A stretch of DNA of 64,000 nt, taken from assembly GCA_037138755.1 (NCBI GenBank), contig JBAXHT010000001.1:1893805-1957804 (forward strand). Reading direction: 5' to 3'. Source of the DNA: Armatimonadota bacterium. Its GTDB lineage: Bacteria > Armatimonadota > Fimbriimonadia > Fimbriimonadales > Fimbriimonadaceae. The notes beneath the pieces were generated by a model. That model saw nothing but the letters and a program-made list of their open reading frames with translations. It was not told the DNA's origin and ran no database searches. Position numbers and translations under genes: made by a program. Below, piece by piece: positions 10,528 through 52,543 of the stretch. The stretch's first letter is position 1; every line of letters starts with the position of its first letter.

Positions 10528-10547
10528 GTTAGATCAGTGAGCCTTTG

Positions 10548-10576
10548 GCCTTGCCAGTCTATGAGACTGGCAAGGC
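10548..10576. terminator. Hairpin terminator shared by rpmA and the convergent gene
   Basis: A 13-bp perfect stem (GCCTTGCCAGTCT / AGACTGGCAAGGC) with a 3-base loop, followed by TTTACTGTTTTT on the plus strand. It lies between the rpmA stop and the stop of the opposing gene, so it may act in both directions. Confidence 0.75.
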
Positions 10577-10577
10577 T

Positions 10578-11444
10578 TTACTGTTTTTGCTGCCCTCGTA
10601 GTTTTTCGATATCTGCGATTCGCAGGTTCACATTAGCCAATCGGGTTCCGCCCTTGCGAATCATGGAGTCTCGATAAACATACAAGTGTCTCAATGCCTC
10701 GTCGTACCGCTTCATGGGCTTGAGCGCGATTCCCGCATACAGGTGAAATACGCTGCGATCAGGCCATCGCTTTAGTGCCGCTTCACATGTTGCCAGCACC
10801 AACGGGTAGTTCGAGTTGAGTTCTGGTCGTATGGACTTATCACCAGATCGTCGGTAGGCGGCAGTGTATTCCTGTGCGAGCGCGAATGCAAAGAACGGCT
10901 CGTCTGGGTGCAGTTTTTTGCATTCAGCGATAACCGGTCGAAGTTCGGCTCCTAAGTTGTTCTGACCAGTAGCGACTAAAGCCAAGTTTTGGTGTAACAA
11001 CTTAGAAGGTCGAAGGCCCTTGAAATCGCCACTAAATCGCAGAGTTGGGAATTGTGACGTGCGTCCAACCGCGTCAAAGTAGGATTCGGTGACTGCTGCG
11101 GCATAACAGAGGGATAAGTTCTCCGTTACGGCGTTTGACGAGCGAGCCTTTCTGAATGGCCAGGCTTTCACGAAGCGAGAGAATTCCTTAACTCTGCCTT
11201 CATCCCGCGCGGAGTCGAAGAGAATTTTTACTCTGAGCGGAGTAATTGGCAGTTCCGCCAGCCGTTTGGAGTTTTCTGCGAACGTCCCCTTGAATTCATA
11301 TGTCTCCGACTGCGGAGTGACCTTTGCCAGCGCAGAGATTGAAAGCTCGCCACGATAGTCGATGAATCCTTTGGGGAAGACTTCCTGCCCATTCAGTTCG
11401 GTCTGGGCAAGAAGCATAACCCCCACGAGTAAATTAATTCCCAT
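10578..11444 (-). CDS. Secreted TPR-like protein of unknown function
   Basis: A 288-residue protein with a short N-terminal hydrophobic segment (MGINLLVGVMLLAQTELNG) that looks like a signal peptide. The C-terminal third contains helix-turn-helix repeats reminiscent of tetratricopeptide repeats (YPLVLATCEAALKRWPDRSVFHLYAGIALKPMKRYDEALRHLYVYRD). No catalytic motif is visible. It lies 15 bases after the upstream 517-residue secreted protein on the same strand, so the two probably form an operon. It ends two bases from the shared terminator. Function unknown. Confidence 0.7.
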   Translation of the reverse strand: MGINLLVGVMLLAQTELNGQEVFPKGFIDYRGELSISALAKVTPQSETYEFKGTFAENSKRLAELPITPLRVKILFDSARDEGRVKEFSRFVKAWPFRKARSSNAVTENLSLCYAAAVTESYFDAVGRTSQFPTLRFSGDFKGLRPSKLLHQNLALVATGQNNLGAELRPVIAECKKLHPDEPFFAFALAQEYTAAYRRSGDKSIRPELNSNYPLVLATCEAALKRWPDRSVFHLYAGIALKPMKRYDEALRHLYVYRDSMIRKGGTRLANVNLRIADIEKLRGQQKQ

Positions 11445-11459
11445 GTCTTTGAAACTCCG

Positions 11460-13013
11460 CTAGTCAGCCAGCCCAGACGCTACTTTTCGAACTTCAAATT
11501 CTAATTCGGCCGGACCCGTATTATCGATTGTGTCGTGAAAGTCACCTGTGTAGCCACCCGCCTCATATCGAGCCTGATAGCGAGTTCGGTGCTGGGTTGT
11601 TGTCCTGCAGAACATTTTCCACTTTTCGACGGGATCTGTGCAAGGACCGATTCCGAGTTCGAGTCCTGTGGTAGACGAGAATCCCTGCTCCTCACCTATT
11701 GCCTTAGAGATATCAAAATTGACCGTTAACTCTTTCCAGATCGGAAACTCAATTCCTCCGGACACCTCGACGGGAAATCCGGTTGTCGTGTCCTGTCCGA
11801 CATCTGCAGTCATTACGGCGGTCTGTCCAACAAAAGTTAGTCGCCCTGCCACCGTGGCACTGCCTACTTGTTGTTTTACGGCCCACTGAGTCCAACCTGA
11901 AGTGCGAGTAAAATTCACCCCTTCTAAAAGCTCACTGGGCGCGTGAATATACATCTTCAAACTGCCTGTGAAAGGGCCCGGATTATCAGAACCTGTGTCA
12001 GTTTGTTTTGCCTTGATCTCCGTGGCTACGGGCGAATGCCAAAGGTTTTGCAATCCTGATTGCCCCGAATTGTACACATACCTGACACCAAAGCAAATGC
12101 CGGATTGCTCGTCATCCACGCGATTTGCCGTTCCGACCCCGGTGACACTTACTGACGGATTGCAACTTGTGGTCCAAGAGCCTAGCCTGGAAATTCCGAT
12201 AAGAGTATCTATGACACCCACTTCGTAGACTGGCATCGGGAGTCCATAACCGGTTTCTTCAATCACTGAGACTCCGACGTGCGCCTCTTGCCGCTCGTAG
12301 TCTGTCCCGCCAGCCGGTACAGGGTATCCCGGACCTTCGTGTGTACCAATAATTGAGACTTCTCTCTTGGACGTACTCTTAGCTAGCCCGAGTGCTTTCA
12401 AATCTAAAGTGGCCTCTGCGCGCCAGTCACCCTGCGCACCGGCGTTGAAGCCGTTGCCCTGCGTTCCTGCTGCTGTCACTTTGATGCCACCTTCAATTTC
12501 GATCACCGCTTTGCCATTTGTATCCAGTTTCAGTTTGGCGATTTTTTGCCCTCTGATGATCGTCACGATTTCTGGCATAGGCCGGATGATGTCTTCTGGT
12601 CGTGGAGCGACCAGTGGCAGACCGAGGGCGACTTCAACGGTTGCGCCTTCGGACTTTTGATAATTTGCAACCGAAGACAGCTTTACGAATCCGTATTGGG
12701 GTGGTGCTCCGGATCCAATCCATTCGATTGTAACCGTTCGCTTCCCAGTGCCCTCGCCTCTTGCAGTTGCCTCCACTCCGTCGACTCCTGCGGAAGCCGA
12801 AGCAGCGAAAAACGCGGTCGGGGTCGTACCGAACAAAGATATGAACTGCCCTGTGCCTCGCCCAGTTACAACTTCAGTAATCTTGAACTGACCATTGTTG
12901 AGGACTACTCCCGAGCCTTGCCCTCCTCCTCCCGGCGACTGTGCAGCTCCAGCTGAGATTAGGGAAAGTGCCGCTACGACTGATACGGCAGACTTAGCGA
13001 CGAAACTCCACAT
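11460..13013 (-). CDS. Secreted protein of unknown function, beta-rich
   Basis: A 517-residue protein with a clear signal peptide (KSAVSVVAALSLISAGAAQS), then Gly-rich sequence. Its composition is rich in Thr, Gly, Val and Ser, typical of exported beta-sandwich proteins. Cysteines occur only in the C-terminal half (SCNPS, GICFG, GPCTDP, MFCRTT), which suggests disulfides. No known domain is recognised. The 5' leader carries a run of nine C directly before GCCATG, where a ribosome binding site should be (see the repeat entry). First gene of a two-gene unit with the TPR-like protein. Confidence 0.75.
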   Translation of the reverse strand: MWSFVAKSAVSVVAALSLISAGAAQSPGGGGQGSGVVLNNGQFKITEVVTGRGTGQFISLFGTTPTAFFAASASAGVDGVEATARGEGTGKRTVTIEWIGSGAPPQYGFVKLSSVANYQKSEGATVEVALGLPLVAPRPEDIIRPMPEIVTIIRGQKIAKLKLDTNGKAVIEIEGGIKVTAAGTQGNGFNAGAQGDWRAEATLDLKALGLAKSTSKREVSIIGTHEGPGYPVPAGGTDYERQEAHVGVSVIEETGYGLPMPVYEVGVIDTLIGISRLGSWTTSCNPSVSVTGVGTANRVDDEQSGICFGVRYVYNSGQSGLQNLWHSPVATEIKAKQTDTGSDNPGPFTGSLKMYIHAPSELLEGVNFTRTSGWTQWAVKQQVGSATVAGRLTFVGQTAVMTADVGQDTTTGFPVEVSGGIEFPIWKELTVNFDISKAIGEEQGFSSTTGLELGIGPCTDPVEKWKMFCRTTTQHRTRYQARYEAGGYTGDFHDTIDNTGPAELEFEVRKVASGLAD

Positions 13014-13016
13014 GGC

Positions 13017-13025
13017 GGGGGGGGG
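13017..13025 (-). repeat. C9 homopolymer in the leader of the 517-residue gene
   Basis: Nine consecutive G on the plus strand (C on the coding strand) end four bases before the start codon at 13013. They take the place of a Shine-Dalgarno sequence. A TATAAT box lies at 13049-13054 on the minus strand, putting the tract within a leader of about 28 bases. Such tracts change length by slippage and could vary expression. Confidence 0.6.
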
Positions 13026-13048
13026 TACTTCGGTTCATGTCAATTTGC

Positions 13049-13054
13049 ATTATA
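13049..13054 (-). promoter_or_regulatory. -10 box (TATAAT) of the 517-residue secreted protein gene
   Basis: A perfect TATAAT on the minus strand, 35 bases upstream of the start codon. No good -35 hexamer is seen. Confidence 0.45.
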
Positions 13055-13181
13055 TGATAGTCTTACAGGGAATTGTGGAAATAGCGCAAAAATATCTAGA
13101 AATTTAACTTTTCTGTTCCATGCAACCTCCAAATCCTAAACCTCGTACGTTTCATCAGTCAACTCGTACAGGTGTGTGCTA

Positions 13182-43829: not shown

Positions 43830-44834
43830 ATGGAACTCACCCGCTTACTCGCAATCTTTATCGGCACCTACACCTCCCCCGGTGGAAGCGAAGGCATCTA
43901 TCAAGCCTTGCTCGACATCCAAACTGGTGAGCTCACCCAAAAGAAGCTATTCGCCAAGCTCCAAAACCCGAGCTATCTTCTTCGGCGAGGCGAAACCTTG
44001 TATGCCGTGAGCGAGAAAGCCAACGGCGAGATCTGGGGCTTCGACATGAAGGGCGAAGAGATCAACCACCAGCCCACCGGTGGTGACTACCCCTGCCACC
44101 TCGATCACGACGGTGACGGTATCGTTGTCGCCAACTACAACAAAGGCGTCTTCGCCCGCTACTTCCTCAGCGCTAAAGGCGAGTTGCAATCTCCAGAGTT
44201 TTTTACCAACAACGGTTCTGGCCCGAACAAGTCGCGCCAAGACGCTTCTCACGCACACTTCATCGGCGAAACCGAGAAGAATCTTTTCGCTTGCGACCTT
44301 GGCACCGACGAAGTTCTCATCTTCAAAAAGGGCTCTCTGAATGACCCAGCCAGGTTCAAAACCGCCCCTGGGGCGGGTCCCCGTCACGCGGCATTCGACT
44401 CAACGCGAAACATTCTATTCGTCAATAACGAGCTCAACTGCACCGTTTCTGCGCTCAAGTTCGACGAAAAGAAGGGAAGCCTTAAGGAACTCAACACACT
44501 CTCTACTCTGCCCGTCGGAACCGACCTGAAAGGCAACTCCACCGCCGAAATCCGCGTCTTCCAAAACAAATTCGTTTACGTTTCCAATCGGGGCCACCAC
44601 TCCATCGCCAGCTACGCCATCCAAAATGACGGCAAGCTCAAGCTCATCGAAGTCACCCCTGCCGGAGTCAAAACCCCCCGAGGAATGAACATCGACCCCA
44701 GCAACACCTGGCTCCTTGTCGCCGGACAAGACGACAACGTGATCAAGTCCTTCCGCATCAACCCCAAAACCGGCAAACTTAAACCCAGCGGCTTCTCGCT
44801 GGCGGTCAGCAAGCCCGTCGATATCGCATTCTAA
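43830..44834 (+). CDS. Lactonase family protein (6-phosphogluconolactonase type, beta-propeller)
   Basis: A 334-residue protein of the seven-bladed propeller lactonase family. It starts FIGTYTSPGGSEGIYQALLDIQTGEL, the signature 'GTYT...GIY...d-x-x-t-G-x-L'. Blades show the recurring patterns NPSYLLRRGETLYAVSE, GAGPRHAAFDSTRNILFVNNELNCTVSALKF, KFVYVSNRGHHSIASYAI and PRGMNIDPSNTWLLVAGQDDNVIKSFRINPKTGKL. It may hydrolyse 6-phosphogluconolactone or another sugar lactone. No clear signal peptide is seen. Confidence 0.92.
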   Translation: MELTRLLAIFIGTYTSPGGSEGIYQALLDIQTGELTQKKLFAKLQNPSYLLRRGETLYAVSEKANGEIWGFDMKGEEINHQPTGGDYPCHLDHDGDGIVVANYNKGVFARYFLSAKGELQSPEFFTNNGSGPNKSRQDASHAHFIGETEKNLFACDLGTDEVLIFKKGSLNDPARFKTAPGAGPRHAAFDSTRNILFVNNELNCTVSALKFDEKKGSLKELNTLSTLPVGTDLKGNSTAEIRVFQNKFVYVSNRGHHSIASYAIQNDGKLKLIEVTPAGVKTPRGMNIDPSNTWLLVAGQDDNVIKSFRINPKTGKLKPSGFSLAVSKPVDIAF

Positions 44835-44846
44835 TCCGAACTCCCA

Positions 44847-44868
44847 CTCTCCTTCTCAGGAGGGAGAG
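44847..44868. repeat. Hairpin-forming GC-rich repeat
   Basis: CTCTCC ... GGAGAG pair across a short loop, followed by a G-rich stretch (44869-44886). It lies 13 bases after the lactonase stop and could end transcription weakly or belong to a dispersed repeat. Confidence 0.4.
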
Positions 44869-44935
44869 GGGGCTGGGGGGTGAGGGAGGCTAATGCTGAA
44901 GCCGTGTACCGTAACCCGGCGTCGGCGCACACGGA

Positions 44936-44983
44936 ACCGAGCAAGCTCGGCACAACCAGAGCGGCGCCATGCCGCCGCACTCC
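44936..44983. repeat. Second copy of the REP-like repeat sequence
   Basis: CCGAGCAAGCTCGGC (44937-44951) and CCGCACTCCA (44975-44984) match parts of the element at 9711-9835: the hairpin complement and the terminal arm. They are in the region between two plus-strand genes, which has no ORF. This copy is shorter and lacks the GGAAAC palindrome. Confidence 0.6.
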
Positions 44984-44992
44984 AAACATGGC

Positions 44993-44998
44993 TAAACT
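44993..44998 (+). promoter_or_regulatory. -10-like box of a probable leaderless transcript
   Basis: TAAACT ends six bases before GTG 45005. No Shine-Dalgarno sequence is present. Confidence 0.4.
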
Positions 44999-45004
44999 AA
45001 AGTC

Positions 45005-45496
45005 GTGACTCCTGCCCAACGCCTCCGCCGACTCCGCATCCTTCTCGGAGGATTCATTTTCGGCGTGGTCGTCAGCGGAGTCACCGCCTTTCCGCTCACC
45101 TGGGAGGTGAATCTCCTCGTCCAATGGTTCGGGCAGGGCGACGACGGTCTCGCTACCTGGCTCCGCATCGTTCAAGCCGGCCTCCAAAACAACGACCAAA
45201 ACTACCCCTTCATCGCCTACGGAACGGACTGGCTTGCCTTCGGCCACCTCGCCATCGCCGGAGCCTTCATCGGCCCCTACCGGGACCCGGTCAAGAACAA
45301 GTTCATTATCCAATGGGGCATGTGGACCTGCGCCCTCGTCCCCCTCCTCGCCTTCACCTGTGGCCCCATAAGGGGCATCCCCTTCGGCTGGCGTATCATC
45401 GACTCCCTTTTCGGCATCGTCGGAATCGTGCCGATGTGGCTCGTCCTTAAGGACACCACCGAACTGGAAAACGAAAATCGCCCCGATTCAAAGTGA
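45005..45496 (+). CDS. Membrane protein of unknown function
   Basis: A 163-residue protein with four hydrophobic segments (ILLGGFIFGVVVSGVTAFPLTW; FGHLAIAGAFIGPY; WGMWTCALVPLLAFTCGP; LFGIVGIVPMWLVL). The periplasmic loop LVQWFGQGDDGLATWLRIVQAGLQNNDQNYPFIAYGTDWLAFGH resembles a conserved hypothetical family found in Bacteroidetes- and Armatimonadota-like genomes. No function is known. Its last codons and stop lie inside a 29-base repeat that also ends the rplJL operon. Confidence 0.75.
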   Translation: MTPAQRLRRLRILLGGFIFGVVVSGVTAFPLTWEVNLLVQWFGQGDDGLATWLRIVQAGLQNNDQNYPFIAYGTDWLAFGHLAIAGAFIGPYRDPVKNKFIIQWGMWTCALVPLLAFTCGPIRGIPFGWRIIDSLFGIVGIVPMWLVLKDTTELENENRPDSK

Positions 45497-45506
45497 ATCG
45501 GAGCGA
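45478..45506. repeat. 29-base terminator repeat, left copy
   Basis: Identical over 29 bases to 46763-46791. It contains the hairpin CCGATTCA-AAG-TGAATCGG. On the minus strand it is followed by TTTT, so it can terminate the minus-strand gene that ends at 45530. It also encodes the last codons and stop of the plus-strand gene. Confidence 0.85.
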
Positions 45507-45529
45507 TCTCCCCGTTAGCCCTGCGAGAT

Positions 45530-45889
45530 TTAGTTGATCTTGCTGGCTCGAAATAGCTCGAACGCGATTGAAAACAGCAGGACAAAGAGGAGAGAAAGTA
45601 GTTCAAAAGGTTTGCCACCAAGTAAGCCAAGAAAGACTAGTGCGATCATCATTGCTCCAAATCTTCCTCCCGCCGATGCGGTATCAAATGAGATAGCCCT
45701 TGATGTCGAGTTGCTAGAGGCGCAAACCAAAAGCAAACCAGCGAGCGTCAGTAAGCAGAAATCTCGTATCCCCAAGACTTCCGCGGGATTTCTCACAACA
45801 CTCGCAATCAAGGCGGTGGCGGCTACGCCAAATGCCACCGCCCTAAAAAGGACGGTGACAAACAGATTACGATCAATCTTTCTGAGCAT
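45530..45889 (-). CDS. Small hydrophobic membrane protein
   Basis: A 119-residue protein with three to four hydrophobic segments (LFRAVAFGVAATALIASVV; FCLLTLAGLLLVCASS; FGAMMIALVFLGLLGG; LLSLLFVLLFSIAFEL). ATG 45889 is preceded by GGAG nine bases away; a TTG at 45904 is less likely. It overlaps the end of the upstream Tat-signal gene by 17 bases, so the two are co-translated. Not recognised. Its size and hydrophobicity would fit an immunity or holin-like partner of the upstream protein, but this is speculation. Confidence 0.65.
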   Translation of the reverse strand: MLRKIDRNLFVTVLFRAVAFGVAATALIASVVRNPAEVLGIRDFCLLTLAGLLLVCASSNSTSRAISFDTASAGGRFGAMMIALVFLGLLGGKPFELLSLLFVLLFSIAFELFRASKIN

Positions 45890-46631
45890 TGAGAGCAGCT
45901 CCAAGTTCGTACGCCAGGATTAGGAGTCCGATTACGCCGAGTAATTTCTTCCCAATTGCTTTCATAAGTTTCTCAAAGAACTCCTTTCCAAACTTGCCGA
46001 TAATCTTCTTTCCGACTGAACCCTTAAGCAAGTTAATGATAGCCTTAATAATTGCTTTTACTTCTTCCCAGGCCTTTCGCTTTATTGCTTCAGCCAAGGA
46101 GTTGAACAGAGTCCCGAACTCCGCGACAAAGATCTTCATCAATTCCTCTAGCTCAGTCTTGGACAGACCCACCAAAACCGCCAGGAACTTGGCAATCAAA
46201 ACCTCGCTTATCGGCTTCTGGGCAAATGGGATACCGGGACTCGTAATCTCCAGCAACTCAAGCTCAAGTGCCTCCATCTGTAGAAAGTTTACTGGTTGCG
46301 TCTCTGCCGCCTCCAGCTGGGTGATTGAGGTCGGGTCAGCTAGTTCCAGGATTTGATTAGAAGCCGCGGCCTGCTTATACTGGCCAAGTGCATTTAGGAG
46401 TCCTTGGACACTAGCCCGGCGCTGTGTAAGCGTTTGCGAAGCCCATTGATCGTAGATTGGTGTGATCGCGGCGATCATCGCAGTTGTTTCCGGTCCTGTT
46501 GGGAATGGCTCTGCCGGGATCGCAATCGCTTGGGCTTGAACAGGTTGTTGCGTTTCTGGCAGTGCCTTTCCAAAGACACTTGCCAATGCGATAGTAAACG
46601 AAGACTTGATGAGGTTTCTGCGTGATTGCAT
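45873..46631 (-). CDS. Tat-signal protein with cationic amphipathic C-terminus, unknown function
   Basis: A 252-residue protein. The N-terminus MQSRRNLIKSSFTIALASVFGKA has the twin-arginine pattern S-R-R-x-x-x-K with a hydrophobic stretch, so Tat export is likely. The middle is helical, without recognised motifs. The last ~75 residues are strongly amphipathic and Lys-rich (KAIIKAIINLLKGSVGKKIIGKFGKEFFEKLMKAIGKKLLGVIGLLILAYELG). This resembles membrane-active peptides or pore-forming helices. The base composition is AT-richer than the neighbours. TACAAT lies six bases before ATG 46631. Confidence 0.7.
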   Translation of the reverse strand: MQSRRNLIKSSFTIALASVFGKALPETQQPVQAQAIAIPAEPFPTGPETTAMIAAITPIYDQWASQTLTQRRASVQGLLNALGQYKQAAASNQILELADPTSITQLEAAETQPVNFLQMEALELELLEITSPGIPFAQKPISEVLIAKFLAVLVGLSKTELEELMKIFVAEFGTLFNSLAEAIKRKAWEEVKAIIKAIINLLKGSVGKKIIGKFGKEFFEKLMKAIGKKLLGVIGLLILAYELGAALNAQKD

Positions 46632-46637
46632 TAACAA

Positions 46638-46643
46638 ATTGTA
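46638..46643 (-). promoter_or_regulatory. -10-like box of a probable leaderless transcript
   Basis: TACAAT on the minus strand ends six bases before ATG 46631. There is no Shine-Dalgarno sequence. Confidence 0.4.
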
Positions 46644-46754
46644 TCAAGAAAGAAAACAAAGTAGGTAGCAAATAACTCTACGTTAAGAAAAAAGCGTGAA
46701 TGAAAGCGCTTGCACCGAAAAGTAGGTGCAATATCACCGAGACAGAGAAAACAT

Positions 46755-46796
46755 AAAAAAACTCGCCCCGATTCAAAGTGAATCGGAGCGAGTTTT
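46755..46796 (-). terminator. Rho-independent terminator of rplJ-rplL (right repeat copy)
   Basis: The hairpin ACTCGC-c-CCGATTCA-AAG-TGAATCGG-a-GCGAGT is followed on the minus strand by T6. It lies 22 bases past the rplL stop. Bases 46763-46791 are identical to 45478-45506. Confidence 0.88.
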
Positions 46797-46817
46797 GAAA
46801 GATCAATAAGCCGAGGA

Positions 46818-47207
46818 TTACTTGATTTCGACCTTTCCGCCAGCTTCGTCGATCTGCTTCTTGATCGAATCTGCTTCGTCCTTCGAAACGCCCTGCTTCA
46901 AAGGCTGTGGAGCGCCGTCGACGAGGTCCTTGGCTTCTTTGAGGCCAAGACCGGTGAGTTCGCGAACGACCTTGATGACCTGGAGCTTCTGTCCGCCTGC
47001 CTCAGCAAGGATGACGTCGAACGAGGTCTTCTCTTCGACTTCAGCAGCGCCGCCGCCAGCTGGAGCCATTCCAGCGAACATAGCTGGGTTAAACGCAGGA
47101 GCTGCAGCGGTAACGCCGAACTTGTCCTCAAGTGCCTTCTTGAGCTCGGAGAGCTCGATTGCGGTAAGTCCGCTAATACTTTCAACGATTGAATCGATGG
47201 ATGCCAT
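46818..47207 (-). CDS. rplL: 50S ribosomal protein L7/L12
   Basis: A 129-residue stalk protein. The N-terminal dimerisation domain [29 protein letters not shown] leads through an Ala/Pro/Gly hinge (residues about 35-58) into the C-terminal domain [42 protein letters not shown], which recruits translation GTPases. A purine-rich AGAAGAGAAAAGAA precedes ATG 47207. It follows rplJ by 61 bases and is not followed by rpoB, unlike the usual order. Confidence 0.98.
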
Positions 47208-47268
47208 TTCTTTTCTCTTCTGTGTGTGTTAAATCTTGGAGCCCTTACGGGGCTCAAAACGAATCTTC

Positions 47269-47796
47269 TTAGGCGGCTTTCTCCGCTGCCTGGTCGGCCA
47301 CCGCGCCAATCGTGCGGATTGGTTCCGCATAAAGGGCTTCGATGGTTCCAACGAGGTTGCTGAGAGGAGCAGCGATGGTTCCGATAACCTGCGAGATGAG
47401 AACATCGCGCGGAGGAAGGTCCGAAAGGGCCTTGACCTGGTCAGCAGACATCGCTTTGCCACCAAAGAGTCCGCCTTTTACGACGAGCTTCTTGCTGGAT
47501 TTAGCGAAATCGAGAAGTGCCTTTGCACAACCCGCTTCATCTTCGAAGATGTAAGCGTATGCGGTTGTGCCGTTGTGGAACTCAGCCGGAAGGGTGTTGA
47601 CATCCTCGCCAACTGCCGCTCGGAACAACGTGTTCTTGACAACATGGATTTCGGCGCCCTTCTTGCGAAGGTCGGCTCGAAGCCCCTGCATCTGCTTAAC
47701 ACTGAGTCCGCGGTAGTCAGCAAAGATCACGCCCGACGACTTGGAGTACCACTCCTTCGCCTGCTCGATCACTTGTGCTTTTGCTTCTGTGGGCAT
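47269..47796 (-). CDS. rplJ: 50S ribosomal protein L10
   Basis: A 175-residue protein that anchors L7/L12 dimers to the ribosome. MPTEAKAQVIEQAKEWYSKSSGVIFADYRGLSVKQMQGLRADLRKKGAEIHVVKNTLFRAA is the canonical L10 N-terminal domain. GGLFGGKAMSADQVKALSDLPPRDVLISQVIG and the C-terminal L7/L12-binding helix follow. ATG 47796 (MPTEAKAQ) is the correct start; the frame is open upstream inside the leader. Confidence 0.97.
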   Translation of the reverse strand: MPTEAKAQVIEQAKEWYSKSSGVIFADYRGLSVKQMQGLRADLRKKGAEIHVVKNTLFRAAVGEDVNTLPAEFHNGTTAYAYIFEDEAGCAKALLDFAKSSKKLVVKGGLFGGKAMSADQVKALSDLPPRDVLISQVIGTIAAPLSNLVGTIEALYAEPIRTIGAVADQAAEKAA

Positions 47797-47955
47797 TAAT
47801 TTGCACCTGATCTCGAAAAGTTTCGAAGGGAAAACGGCGCAGAAGAGACGTCCCCGGAATAGGGACACGGGAATGAATCAAACCCGTTTTAAGCTCCTCG
47901 GCTGGCGTCCGGCTTGCGCTGGACATTAAGTTTCCACCTGCTGTCTTTAGAGAAC
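47797..47955 (-). promoter_or_regulatory. L10 leader-like autoregulatory RNA
   Basis: The minus-strand sequence upstream of rplJ begins CTAAAGACAGCAGGTGG (complement of 47934-47950), the conserved start of L10-leader RNAs. It continues through several hairpins (for example GTCCC...GGGAC, complement of 47840-47865) to rplJ. In other bacteria L10 or L10-L12 binds this RNA to repress its own operon. A -10-like TATACT lies at 47962-47967 on the minus strand. Assignment is by conserved motif and position. Confidence 0.7.
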
Positions 47956-48023
47956 TGACGGAGTATACCACGCCGGAAGCGGAAGAGTCTTCTCCCTGCA
48001 AAGTGCAGATCGGCCAATTCCCG

Positions 48024-49262
48024 CTATTTTAGGGCGGACGTCACCCAGTCAAAACTGGGAAGGCTTGAGCCGTCGCGCAGGCGGACACCGCTCGAACTTA
48101 CCAACGAATCTCCGCTCTTCCCATCGCTCGAAGTCGATAGTCCGGCAATCTGAGTCTTCTCAATCGGAATCACTTCGCCGCTGTCTGATTTTCCATTCCC
48201 GTTCTGGTCGAACCACAGCGCTAGTCCGACCAGTTCCTTGCCGGATAACTCGCCATCGCGATTATCGTCAAGGGCAGCCATAGCGGTATATCCGTTCTCC
48301 CACAGCATCCACCACGTCGCATTTCCGAAGAGTTGTCGCCCTGATCGGATCCGTCCCTCGCGCATCGGATCCCAGACCAGAAAAGCGGTCGTTGGTTTGA
48401 CCCACTGATAACGCTGCACCCGTGCTGAACCATCGAGATCAAAGCTCACAGTTCGCTTAGAATCGAGCAAATCGGCAATAGATGATGATCGGTCGAAACT
48501 GAGCACGATCGGCGTGATCATCCCAGAGTCTGGAACCTTCTCCAGCTTCGCAAGCTTCATCCGAACCAAATCGGACTTTCTGCCCTTTGGCACGAGTCGC
48601 AGATACGATTTTCCGGCTTCGTACGAGATTAGCGATCCCAGCCCGAAAATCGGCTTTTCTGAGATTTTTGAATCATTCTTTATGGCTTGATCAAAAGCGG
48701 TCGCATACTCATCAGCCGCCACCTTACGCCACTCTTCCGGCGTGTTCGCCTTTGAGTATTTGCCACTTAAGGGAATGCTCGCAGCCAGAAACGAACCAGA
48801 TTCAAAGGTACATGCCAGGGTGAGGTGTGACAGTGCAGTGTCGGTACTCTCGGCTGACTTTTCCCGGAGTTGCCTTTCTAGTTCCAGTGATGTTGTCAGG
48901 CATCGAATTGCCTCACTGATGTGTTTTCGGTTTGCCTCTGTATTCTCAATCTCTCTGCTGCGATTCCAAGGATTCGTGTGGGTTCCAAGATGGTAGAAGT
49001 CGGCAACTTGATCTGGATCTTTCCGGTTTCCGAGGACTTCAACCTCGCCCTTCTTGATCCACCTGCTCTCAATGACACTCGCGTAGGTCGCAAAGTGTGC
49101 CCTCCCGAGCAAATAGAACAGTTTTGGACTTTTGGGCTTATCGACAAGTTGTTTTGTTAAGTTTGCAATCAGACGATCACCGGGAATCCGGCCTGGCATT
49201 ACCGGCATTGCCCCGGTTAGCGCCAGCGCTGCAGCTACGAAACCAGCCACAAACACCTTCAT
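48024..49262 (-). CDS. Secreted protein with a C-terminal EF-hand-like pair
   Basis: A protein of about 412 residues with an N-terminal signal (MKVFVAGFVAAALALTGAMPVMPG). The main part is helical without recognised motifs; TPR-like character is possible around ANRKHISEAIRCLTTSLELERQL. The C-terminus carries two calcium-binding loops, DDNRDGELSGKE and DQNGNGKSDSGE (D-x-N/D-x-D/N-G-x-x-S/D-x-x-E), as in EF-hand or dockerin-like modules. Three in-frame starts exist (49373, 49289, 49262). The shortest is preferred because it avoids overlap with the divergent PadR gene and matches the signal peptide. Function unknown. Confidence 0.7.
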   Translation of the reverse strand: MKVFVAGFVAAALALTGAMPVMPGRIPGDRLIANLTKQLVDKPKSPKLFYLLGRAHFATYASVIESRWIKKGEVEVLGNRKDPDQVADFYHLGTHTNPWNRSREIENTEANRKHISEAIRCLTTSLELERQLREKSAESTDTALSHLTLACTFESGSFLAASIPLSGKYSKANTPEEWRKVAADEYATAFDQAIKNDSKISEKPIFGLGSLISYEAGKSYLRLVPKGRKSDLVRMKLAKLEKVPDSGMITPIVLSFDRSSSIADLLDSKRTVSFDLDGSARVQRYQWVKPTTAFLVWDPMREGRIRSGRQLFGNATWWMLWENGYTAMAALDDNRDGELSGKELVGLALWFDQNGNGKSDSGEVIPIEKTQIAGLSTSSDGKSGDSLVSSSGVRLRDGSSLPSFDWVTSALK

Positions 49263-50636: not shown

Positions 50637-50656
50637 CGAATAATCCATCAAACAGA

Positions 50657-51151
50657 TCAGCTTAAAAAGAATGCAGCGCGCGCCGTTTCCAGCGCCTTCT
50701 CATCGCCACGGGCGATCACGAGGAATTTTCCGGCTTGGACGCTCGTTTGATACTCCACAACGCTATCCTTCGGAATTCCCGAGCTGAGAAGAGCAGCGCC
50801 AAGCGCACCAAGCGCTCCGCCGACAATGATCCCTTCAGCGGCGCCAACCAGCGATGAAGCCAGCCAGCCCGCGACGACGATCGGTCCGACGCCGGGAATA
50901 AACAGAAATGCCGAGCCAAAAAGAAGGCCCCAAAGCCCACCCCAAAACGCTCCGTAGGAACCCGTCGCAATCATCCGATCCGAAGTGTTGATAAACCCAA
51001 TCGGATGCTCCTCGCTATGGTAATCCATGCCCAATACGGTCAGGTCACTCATCTTGTAGCCTTCCTTCACCAACTGCCTCACCGCAGCCTCCGCAAGGTT
51101 GTGAGTGTCGAATGTGCCGGTAACGGTTTGCTGTGTTGTAATAGTGTTCAT
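50657..51151 (-). CDS. General stress protein 17M (YflT)-like with glycine-rich membrane segments
   Basis: A 164-residue protein. The N-terminal ~50 residues (TVTGTFDTHNLAEAAVRQLVKEGYKMSDLTVLGMD) resemble the YflT/YwmE stress-protein domain. A Gly/Ala-rich double hydrophobic segment follows (YGAFWGGLWGLLFGSAFLFIPGVGPIVVAGWLASSLVGAAEGIIVGGALGALGAALLSSG). The C-terminal domain is YQTSVQAGKFLVIARGDEKALETARAA. It is probably a membrane-associated stress protein. ATG 51151 is chosen over 51178. It sits beside a BON protein, which supports an envelope-stress theme. Confidence 0.75.
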   Translation of the reverse strand: MNTITTQQTVTGTFDTHNLAEAAVRQLVKEGYKMSDLTVLGMDYHSEEHPIGFINTSDRMIATGSYGAFWGGLWGLLFGSAFLFIPGVGPIVVAGWLASSLVGAAEGIIVGGALGALGAALLSSGIPKDSVVEYQTSVQAGKFLVIARGDEKALETARAAFFLS

Positions 51152-51253
51152 ATCGTTTGCCCAGTTCGTGGGCCGCATGCTCCGCGGAAGCGGAGGCTTT
51201 AGCAGGGATAGGTGCCCAACTGCGGCCAGGGTTGGTCACCAAATCAAAGTTCA

Positions 51254-51904
51254 TCAGACACCAACTTCAAGGAAGTTGTCGACCTTTGAAACGCCAGGAG
51301 TCGCCCATGCCGCCCGAACCGCATCGTTCTTCTCGCTCCAGCCCTGGACAACACCTCGAAGAGTAACGACGCCGTCATTAACTCGAACGTCAATCCGATC
51401 GGCCTCTCGCTGCGCTGCCTGTTTCAAGGTGTCCTCAATCTGAGTCTTGATGTGGGCCATCGTCGCTTCTTGCTTCACCACAACATGGTTAAAGATGCCC
51501 TTCAAGCCATACAGACGGTGAACCGCATGCTCCGCCGCTAGCCGCTGGTAGGGCCACTGAACGCTCCCGGTCAGGGTAACCCAACCATCCTCGGTCGTCA
51601 CCGAGATCCCGGCAGGGACCGCCATGTCCCAAAGCAAGTGCTCCGCCGCCGCCTCAGCGAGCTGAGTGTCGCTGCGATCATGCTCATGTGCCAACTTAAT
51701 GTCAAGCTCCTGAGCCAGGCCGCGAATTCCGGGAACGTGCAGCGCTGTTTTTTCGGCCTGCAGCTTCTGGTAGTAGCCGGGGACGACTCCCGTCAGCGTA
51801 ACCACCTTCTCGTTCACTGCGACCCCGATGTGTCGCGGGTCAATCAGTGGGTTGGCGTGAAGCGCATTCATCACCGACAGTTGGAGTTCTTCGTCATGGG
51901 TCAT
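51254..51904 (-). CDS. Triple-BON-domain protein
   Basis: A 216-residue protein with three BON domains at about residues 4-70, 78-145 and 148-214. Each has the pattern L-x-x-x-x-x-x-x-I-D/V-V-x-V-x-x-G-x-V-T-L-x-G-x-V: HIGVAVNEKVVTLTGVVPGY, GISVTTEDGWVTLTGSVQWPYQRLAAEHAV and IDVRVNDGVVTLRGVVQGWSEKNDAVRAAW. It resembles OsmY-like phospholipid-binding stress proteins but lacks a signal peptide. AAGGA precedes the ATG. Function inferred from the domain only. Confidence 0.88.
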   Translation of the reverse strand: MTHDEELQLSVMNALHANPLIDPRHIGVAVNEKVVTLTGVVPGYYQKLQAEKTALHVPGIRGLAQELDIKLAHEHDRSDTQLAEAAAEHLLWDMAVPAGISVTTEDGWVTLTGSVQWPYQRLAAEHAVHRLYGLKGIFNHVVVKQEATMAHIKTQIEDTLKQAAQREADRIDVRVNDGVVTLRGVVQGWSEKNDAVRAAWATPGVSKVDNFLEVGV

Positions 51905-51991
51905 TCTCGTAATTCCTTCGCTCCGTTGCCGGGGCTGGTTTGATGTTACGAGGGATGACTCCTTTCAGAAAAGTCAGCTTCTTTGTGTCGG

Positions 51992-52543
51992 TCAGATGAC
52001 TGACTGATTAGCAATCGCCGCAAGGAACTCGTCCGCTTCCTCATAAGCCGTCCCCGCCCGGATGCCCGTGATCCGGCTCAGTCGATGAACAACCAACCCG
52101 TAAGGCTGCATCAAATCGTCGTAGTCCCGCATCGTCACCCACTCGCCATCAACGGAGAGAACTCGAACCGTCGAGACAGCACCATCTGGAAGAACCTGGA
52201 TTTGGGCCACCGCGCCCGACTCTGCAATCTGCATCAGAGTCCGTTCGATCTCATCAAGGTCAATCACGAACTCGTACTCCTCGGGAAGGGAAGGGGTGAA
52301 ATCACGCAGACGTCGTAGTCGCTCCGCGTAACGCTCACCAAAGTCGAAGCGACTCACGGAGTCAAGTTCGTACCATTCCACATCGGTGAACTCACCAAGA
52401 GTTCCCAGAAGCTGGACCTGGAAGTTTGCCTGATTAACCTCGAGCACGGTGCCCCAAAGAATCCCGTCGCTGTCCTCCCAAGGACAGAAGCCAAACGGCA
52501 TCCCGTCCGCCAACCGTTCCCGCAACGTCTCGATCAAACTCAT
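51992..52543 (-). CDS. Hypothetical soluble protein
   Basis: A 183-residue acidic protein without a signal or membrane segment. It begins MSLIETLRERLADGMPFGFCPWEDSDGILWGTVLEVNQANFQVQLLGTLGEFTDVEWYELDSVSRFDFG and shows two beta-rich halves, the second (VSTVRVLSVDGEWVTMRDYDDLMQPYGLVVHRLSRITGI) a near repeat of the first in pattern. This suggests an internal duplication of a small barrel-like domain. The family is not recognised. It stands alone and is divergent from the Ig-domain lipoprotein. Confidence 0.6.
   Translation of the reverse strand: MSLIETLRERLADGMPFGFCPWEDSDGILWGTVLEVNQANFQVQLLGTLGEFTDVEWYELDSVSRFDFGERYAERLRRLRDFTPSLPEEYEFVIDLDEIERTLMQIAESGAVAQIQVLPDGAVSTVRVLSVDGEWVTMRDYDDLMQPYGLVVHRLSRITGIRAGTAYEEADEFLAAIANQSVI

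Follow-up and report, generated by a model that had tools for sequence, protein, structure and literature searches.

Two described systems come closest to the arrangement that we have studied. The first is IS1272, which, in the part of its description that deals with target choice (Wan et al. 2017, PMC5678879), takes as its target an inverted repeat of 22-30 bp that often lies 3′ of genes. It has its own transposase and terminal repeats of 16 bp, and the actual insertions described there replace the stem-loop, with no duplication of the target. The same part of the paper sets out a hypothetical 'pathway b', in which the 5′ feet of a stem-loop or cruciform are attacked and the insert ends up with a complete copy of the stem-loop on either side (PMC5678879). 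The second system is the 89K island of Streptococcus suis. According to the passages that treat its integration (PMC3132442), this island of about 80 ORFs is integrated in the rplL gene and carries its own int and xis genes.

We have analyzed a cassette of two genes that lies between rplL and a convergent gene, bounded at each end by a copy of the same hairpin (Table 1). Positions refer to the window, that is, the whole stretch of 64,000 nucleotides that was analyzed. The genome that contains it is denoted G000, the nearest relative examined G016 and a second relative G001. The layout resembles that of pathway b, as drawn in the section cited, in that a whole stem-loop stands at each end, and differs from IS1272 as there described in that the cassette has neither a transposase nor terminal repeats. 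It also resembles 89K, within what the integration passages say of that island, in the insertion at rplL and the direct repeat at each end; unlike 89K, the repeat is the terminator beyond rplL, and there is no recombinase. The integrase of 89K shows, on the evidence of those passages (PMC3132442), that rplL can serve as an integration site. The locus is probably best explained by the insertion of an orphan operon at a terminator, with the hairpin copied from the target.

Table 1. Positions in the window of the hairpin copies, the inserted segment and the neighboring genes
Feature	Position	Strand	Description
Left hairpin copy	45478..45506	.	29 bases; assigned from identity, fold and orthology of the DUF-side flank in G016
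Right hairpin copy	46763..46791	.	Assigned from identity, fold, T tract and orthology in G016 and G001
Inserted segment	45507..46762	minus	1,256 bp, AT-rich, not found in relatives
Orphan Tat-signal protein	45873..46631	minus	252 aa from ATG at 46631; start in the ORF list is TTG at 46637
Orphan small membrane protein	45530..45889	minus	119 aa from ATG at 45889; TTG start at 45904 possible
Cassette operon upstream region	46638..46762	minus	35% G+C
Convergent membrane-protein gene	45005..45496	plus	163 aa, weakly DUF1404-like; left neighbor
rplL (L7/L12)	46818..47207	minus	Right neighbor
rplJ	47269..47868	minus	Presumably rplJ (name taken from the preliminary description); listed from GTG, with an in-frame ATG downstream

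A preliminary description of this DNA had claimed that two identical 29-base copies share one hairpin, that the right copy ends rplJ-rplL and that the left copy encodes the last codons of a plus-strand gene. Alignment and folding bear out the first of these. The copies are identical over 29 bases with a spacing of 1,285 bases, the match stretches to 33 nt if one mismatch is accepted, and no chance match to the repeat was obtained in 100 shuffles of the window. Both copies have a strong predicted fold on either strand. The right copy is indeed the terminator of rplJ-rplL, for which a simple terminator scan gives 18 pairs and, on the rplL (minus) strand, a complete T tract. For the left copy the scan finds a partial stem of 5 pairs only, and the full stem is unscored as a terminator, because the T run is interrupted in the sequence ATTTTCGTTTTCC that directly follows this (cassette-side) copy. 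From its position, the left copy would end the minus-strand operon of the cassette (tat-hyd, comprising the genes for the Tat-signal and small membrane proteins). It also encodes RPDSK and a stop codon, forming the 3′ end of the convergent gene as had been stated.

The hairpin is rare. Allowing up to 3 mismatches, the 29-mer has two copies only in the 3,272,628-base genome, and it was not found in viral contigs. Some 30 hairpins of comparable size were found in 240 kb of G000, making 435 pairs, of which this pair scores 59 and the runner-up 23. A hairpin widespread in the genome had been named in advance as an observation that would refute the proposed insertion. With two genomic copies only, and the other hairpins in the 240 kb unlike this one, the reading of the repeat as a common terminator was rejected. 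A search of Rfam gave no element at the gathering score in 44800-48100.

Between the copies lie only two genes, both on the minus strand and overlapping by 17 nt. The G+C content of the cassette is 47.6% compared with 54.1% for the window, and is the lowest of 628 sliding intervals of the same size; its earlier characterization as two genes only, richer in A+T than their surroundings, is thus upheld, and the composition appears foreign. The first protein has the N-terminus MQSRRNLIKSSFTIALASVFGKA, a motif recognized by eye which we take to be a twin-arginine signal, and a TatC gene was found in G000. Its C-terminal third is Lys-rich, net positive and strongly amphipathic, in agreement with the earlier claim of a Lys-rich amphipathic C-terminus, and is helical in a model of low confidence. 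The second protein is predicted to have about four hydrophobic helices. The structural models are poor, with mean pLDDT values of 48.6 for the Tat-signal protein and 58.3 for the small membrane protein. The ATG starts of Table 1 are our choice, the searches and models having used the ORFs from their TTG starts. The upstream region is presumed to contain the promoter, and no sigma-70 consensus was found on its minus strand. An inverted repeat TTGCACC-N8-GGTGCAA is also present in this AT-rich region, at 46710-46731, and is possibly an operator or a product of chance.

No homologue of the Tat-signal protein was found in 60 other relatives, and no convincing relative in the other 290 genomes of the phylum. 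The 291 phylum genomes including G000 gave three weak matches with E values from 7e-4 to 7e-3 over 53-105 residues, the best being 7e-4 over 53 residues; two of the three fall in frames containing stops. Nothing convincing was found in genome contigs, viral contigs, plasmids, phages or PDB sequences. The small membrane protein gave nothing convincing in 60 relatives, viral contigs, plasmids or phages. It had weak matches in three of the 60 relatives (E 0.01-0.06, two in stop-containing frames), and a second weak match in its own genome (E 0.04) is also in a frame with stops. No convincing family for either protein was found in Pfam, NCBIfam, PHROGs or PADLOC. Matches to RE_TdeIII, CobN and other families were far below the cut-off, and we take weak matches of this type as due to chance because of the helical, Lys-rich stretch.

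We have compared the corresponding site in the relatives. The preliminary description had suggested insertion at a terminator with duplication, which would be supported by relatives lacking the cassette and having a single terminator after rplL, and this is what is seen in both G016 and G001. In G016, which matches the Fimbriimonas sp. MAG record JARXAE010000016.1, rplL (98% identical) is followed by a single hairpin and then by the convergent gene (93%), and the cassette is absent. When the cassette and one repeat (1,285 bp) are removed from the window, the remaining sequence aligns scarlessly through the G016 hairpin, with a 2-base indel nearby and scattered substitutions. On the G016 site the BLAST flanks of the insert share 36 bases; both flanks there are intact and contain no trace of the cassette. 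Relative to this site 29 bases are duplicated in G000, and the direct repeats at the two cassette ends equal the empty site. Relatives carrying the cassette genes with unlike terminators, which would have told against the suggestion, were not seen, the Tat-signal gene being without a convincing match in the 290 phylum genomes.

The G001 site also has one hairpin and no cassette, followed by an lnt-like gene and then the convergent gene. The lnt-like gene (459 aa; L020 1924-3303), presumed to be lnt from the look of its sequence, likewise ends RPDSK within the hairpin. Weak matches to it occur elsewhere in G000 (E 1.5e-4, in a frame of 270 aa) and G016 (E 3.8e-5, in a frame of 275 aa). Since these two genomes have a weak match only, the gene was probably lost in G000 and G016 or gained in G001. 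The simplest history would start from the order convergent gene, lnt, hairpin, rplL, with deletion of lnt and then insertion of the cassette with hairpin duplication in the G000 lineage. We infer the lnt step, and the main claim is independent of it. Out of a possible 58, the local score of the hairpin is 58 in G000, 53 in G016 and 51 in G001; it is 12-20 in the other 17 of 20 genomes of the genus, two of which (G010 and G007) have clipped loci that read less cleanly.

Because the terminator is specific to the lineage of G000, G016 and G001, an element that brought a ready-made identical copy with it is unlikely. The comparison of the sites makes the target the most likely source of the hairpin copy, ahead of the insert itself. 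The terminator would have been the point of entry of the operon, with all 29 bases of the hairpin duplicated from the target; through this duplication a hairpin would still stand at the end of rplJ-rplL, of the incoming operon and of the convergent gene. More tentatively, staggered breaks might have been made at both feet of the hairpin in cruciform form, with fill-in after the foreign piece was joined, and repair or trans-acting enzymes would have performed the cutting and fill-in.

The cassette does not correspond well to the familiar kinds of mobile DNA. Neither a recombinase nor a transposase is encoded in it, and its inner 60-base ends have no terminal inverted repeats beyond chance, 95 of 300 shuffles reaching the observed score. 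As in an integrative element, it has direct repeats equal to the empty site; unlike one, it lacks an integrase of its own. As in a DDE insertion sequence or MITE, there is a target duplication, here of 29 bases; unlike these, it has no terminal inverted repeats, and the target duplication of DDE elements is usually a few bases, much shorter than 29. PF13751, which we take as a marker of IS1182-type transposases and which was the sole family of this type tried, had no match in G000. The presence of the host terminator at both ends argues against an integron gene cassette.

A route through cruciform feet and the fill-in repair of a broken hairpin fit the layout equally well. The latter leads to a narrower form of our preferred explanation that is compatible with it, whereby template switching brought in foreign DNA to mend a replication break at the hairpin, and fill-in duplicated the hairpin with no dedicated enzyme. 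Hairpins stall replication forks and are cut in cells, the insert has no mobility gene or terminal repeat, and the case is an isolated one, all of which favor such a capture; against this, an exact duplication of the whole hairpin would be tidier than is usual for repair of this kind. We regard it as a possible course of events.

Alternatively, a circular cassette bearing a 29-bp attP could have been integrated by a tyrosine recombinase acting in trans at the terminator as attB, giving attL and attR and leaving the cassette re-excisable. The hairpin arms, two inverted stretches of 12 bases around a short center, resemble the core site of a recombinase, and there are nine integrase-family matches in G000, eight of them above the cut-off. 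Integration at rplL with direct repeats as attL and attR is moreover known from the 89K island, in the passages on its integration (PMC3132442). However, all the integrase matches in G000 lie elsewhere and the cassette has no recombinase of its own. The 29-mer, being lineage-specific and absent from the rest of the genome and from viral contigs, makes a pre-matched attP hard to explain. Furthermore, an integrase-bearing island in G000 uses the end of tRNA-Val as its repeat. Site-specific recombination of this kind is in our estimation unlikely.

The island in question (G000:C1:1211510-1256225, outside the window) is a classical tRNA-targeted island. Its identical 47-nt direct repeats are about 44.7 kb apart, with the right copy inside the tRNA-Val gene and an integrase-family gene nearby at C1:1252635. 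The cassette resembles it in being flanked by an identical direct repeat that belongs to a host gene, but is small and without an integrase, whereas the island has 44.7 kb between its repeats and an integrase near one end.

Could the difference between the genomes have arisen by loss? The preliminary description had offered, as an alternative, a capacity for excision by recombination between the copies; this may exist, although the cassette itself would supply no recombinase for it. The ancestor of G000 and G016 might have had the cassette between hairpins, with recombination between the copies removing it in G016. A precise deletion between direct repeats would yield the single copy found in G016, and the polarity, as judged from the sequences, rests on one close outgroup together with absence elsewhere, such that excision from G016 would look identical. 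Yet this history requires a gain plus a loss, the cassette was not found in G001 or other relatives, and the intact G016 flanks are without trace of it. Gain in a single lineage needs one event, because there is no convincing Tat-signal homologue in the 60 relatives or 290 phylum genomes. Insertion is thus better supported than loss from G016, which we consider improbable. An assembly artefact, in which the assembler fused a free circle of 1,285 bp, bearing one hairpin, to the chromosome at the common 29-mer, predicts exactly this layout and G000 is in 20 contigs, but a repeat of 29-33 bases would be exceeded by the long k-mers or reads that usually lie behind a 2-Mb contig, and we give this reading scarcely any credence.

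We have also looked for recurrence of the arrangement. Direct repeats of at least 16 nt lying 150-8,000 bases apart were sought in 240 kb of G000, 104 kb of G016 and 219 kb of G001 (about 563 kb), and all 20 pairs from G000, the best (longest) 40 of 60 from G016 and all six from G001 were listed. Among the pairs listed, a 12-pair palindrome is found in the cassette pair only, the others being mostly in repetitive regions, and there is no second hairpin-flanked insert. Neither was one found in 160 kb made up of four stretches that carry integrase genes. When G000 is compared with G016, overlapping flanks occur in one of nine indels larger than 250 bp in the compared stretches, and a direct-repeat word of more than 10 nt is shared by the insert ends in one of the nine; in both instances this is the cassette. 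None of the six indels listed between G000 and G001 has overlapping flanks. The cassette site is not among these six because the lnt gene of G001 is similar in length to the cassette. The hairpin-flanked cassette is therefore a single case so far.

A general class, in which transposase-free cassettes or an activity in trans insert at terminators by cutting the feet of the hairpin and copying it whole, is quite unlikely. If it were true, each neighboring transcription unit would keep its terminator, and we would have a natural case of the whole-stem-loop duplication that appears as a hypothetical pathway in the relevant section of the IS1272 paper (PMC5678879). No report of a terminator-duplicating cassette was found in a literature search, which is the sole basis for supposing it absent from print. 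Where close relatives differ by a small pair of orphan genes, the pair mostly bears no trace of its route of arrival; here both ends, the filled site, the empty site and the complete duplication of a terminator hairpin are all visible. If the event recurs, terminators would be safe docking sites for small cassettes, and if not, this is a well-documented instance of one-off gene capture.

What might the cassette do? Exported bacteriocins paired with a membrane immunity protein form a class. Like such pairs, and as known here from the genes alone, the cassette combines an exported protein of cationic, amphipathic character with a small membrane protein of several helices encoded directly behind it. 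Unlike them, its proteins are unrelated in sequence to the families searched; no bacteriocin or immunity family was matched in Pfam, NCBIfam, PHROGs or PADLOC, and no precedent of a Tat-secreted halocin was found in the literature search. At its most speculative, our proposal would have the exported protein act as a toxin, with immunity provided by the membrane partner encoded just after it. From the anatomy of the genes, this identification as a toxin of bacteriocin type and a protein conferring immunity to it is doubtful, and other roles that employ an exported protein and a membrane partner may apply.

Further differences in gene content were observed between these genomes. The segment at 10528-13109 of the window measures about 2.5 kb and contains two genes, with products of 517 and 288 aa; it is absent at that place in G016 and G001 and has no flanking direct repeats. 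In G016 (L047 2414-4912) an 832-aa ORF stands between lactonase-like and convergent genes, and is missing from the window. A segment of about 1.4 kb at 50653-52026 of the window, which is absent at that place in G016 and has no flanking direct repeats, contains two genes (173 and 216 aa); by eye, the 216-aa product resembles BON-domain proteins.
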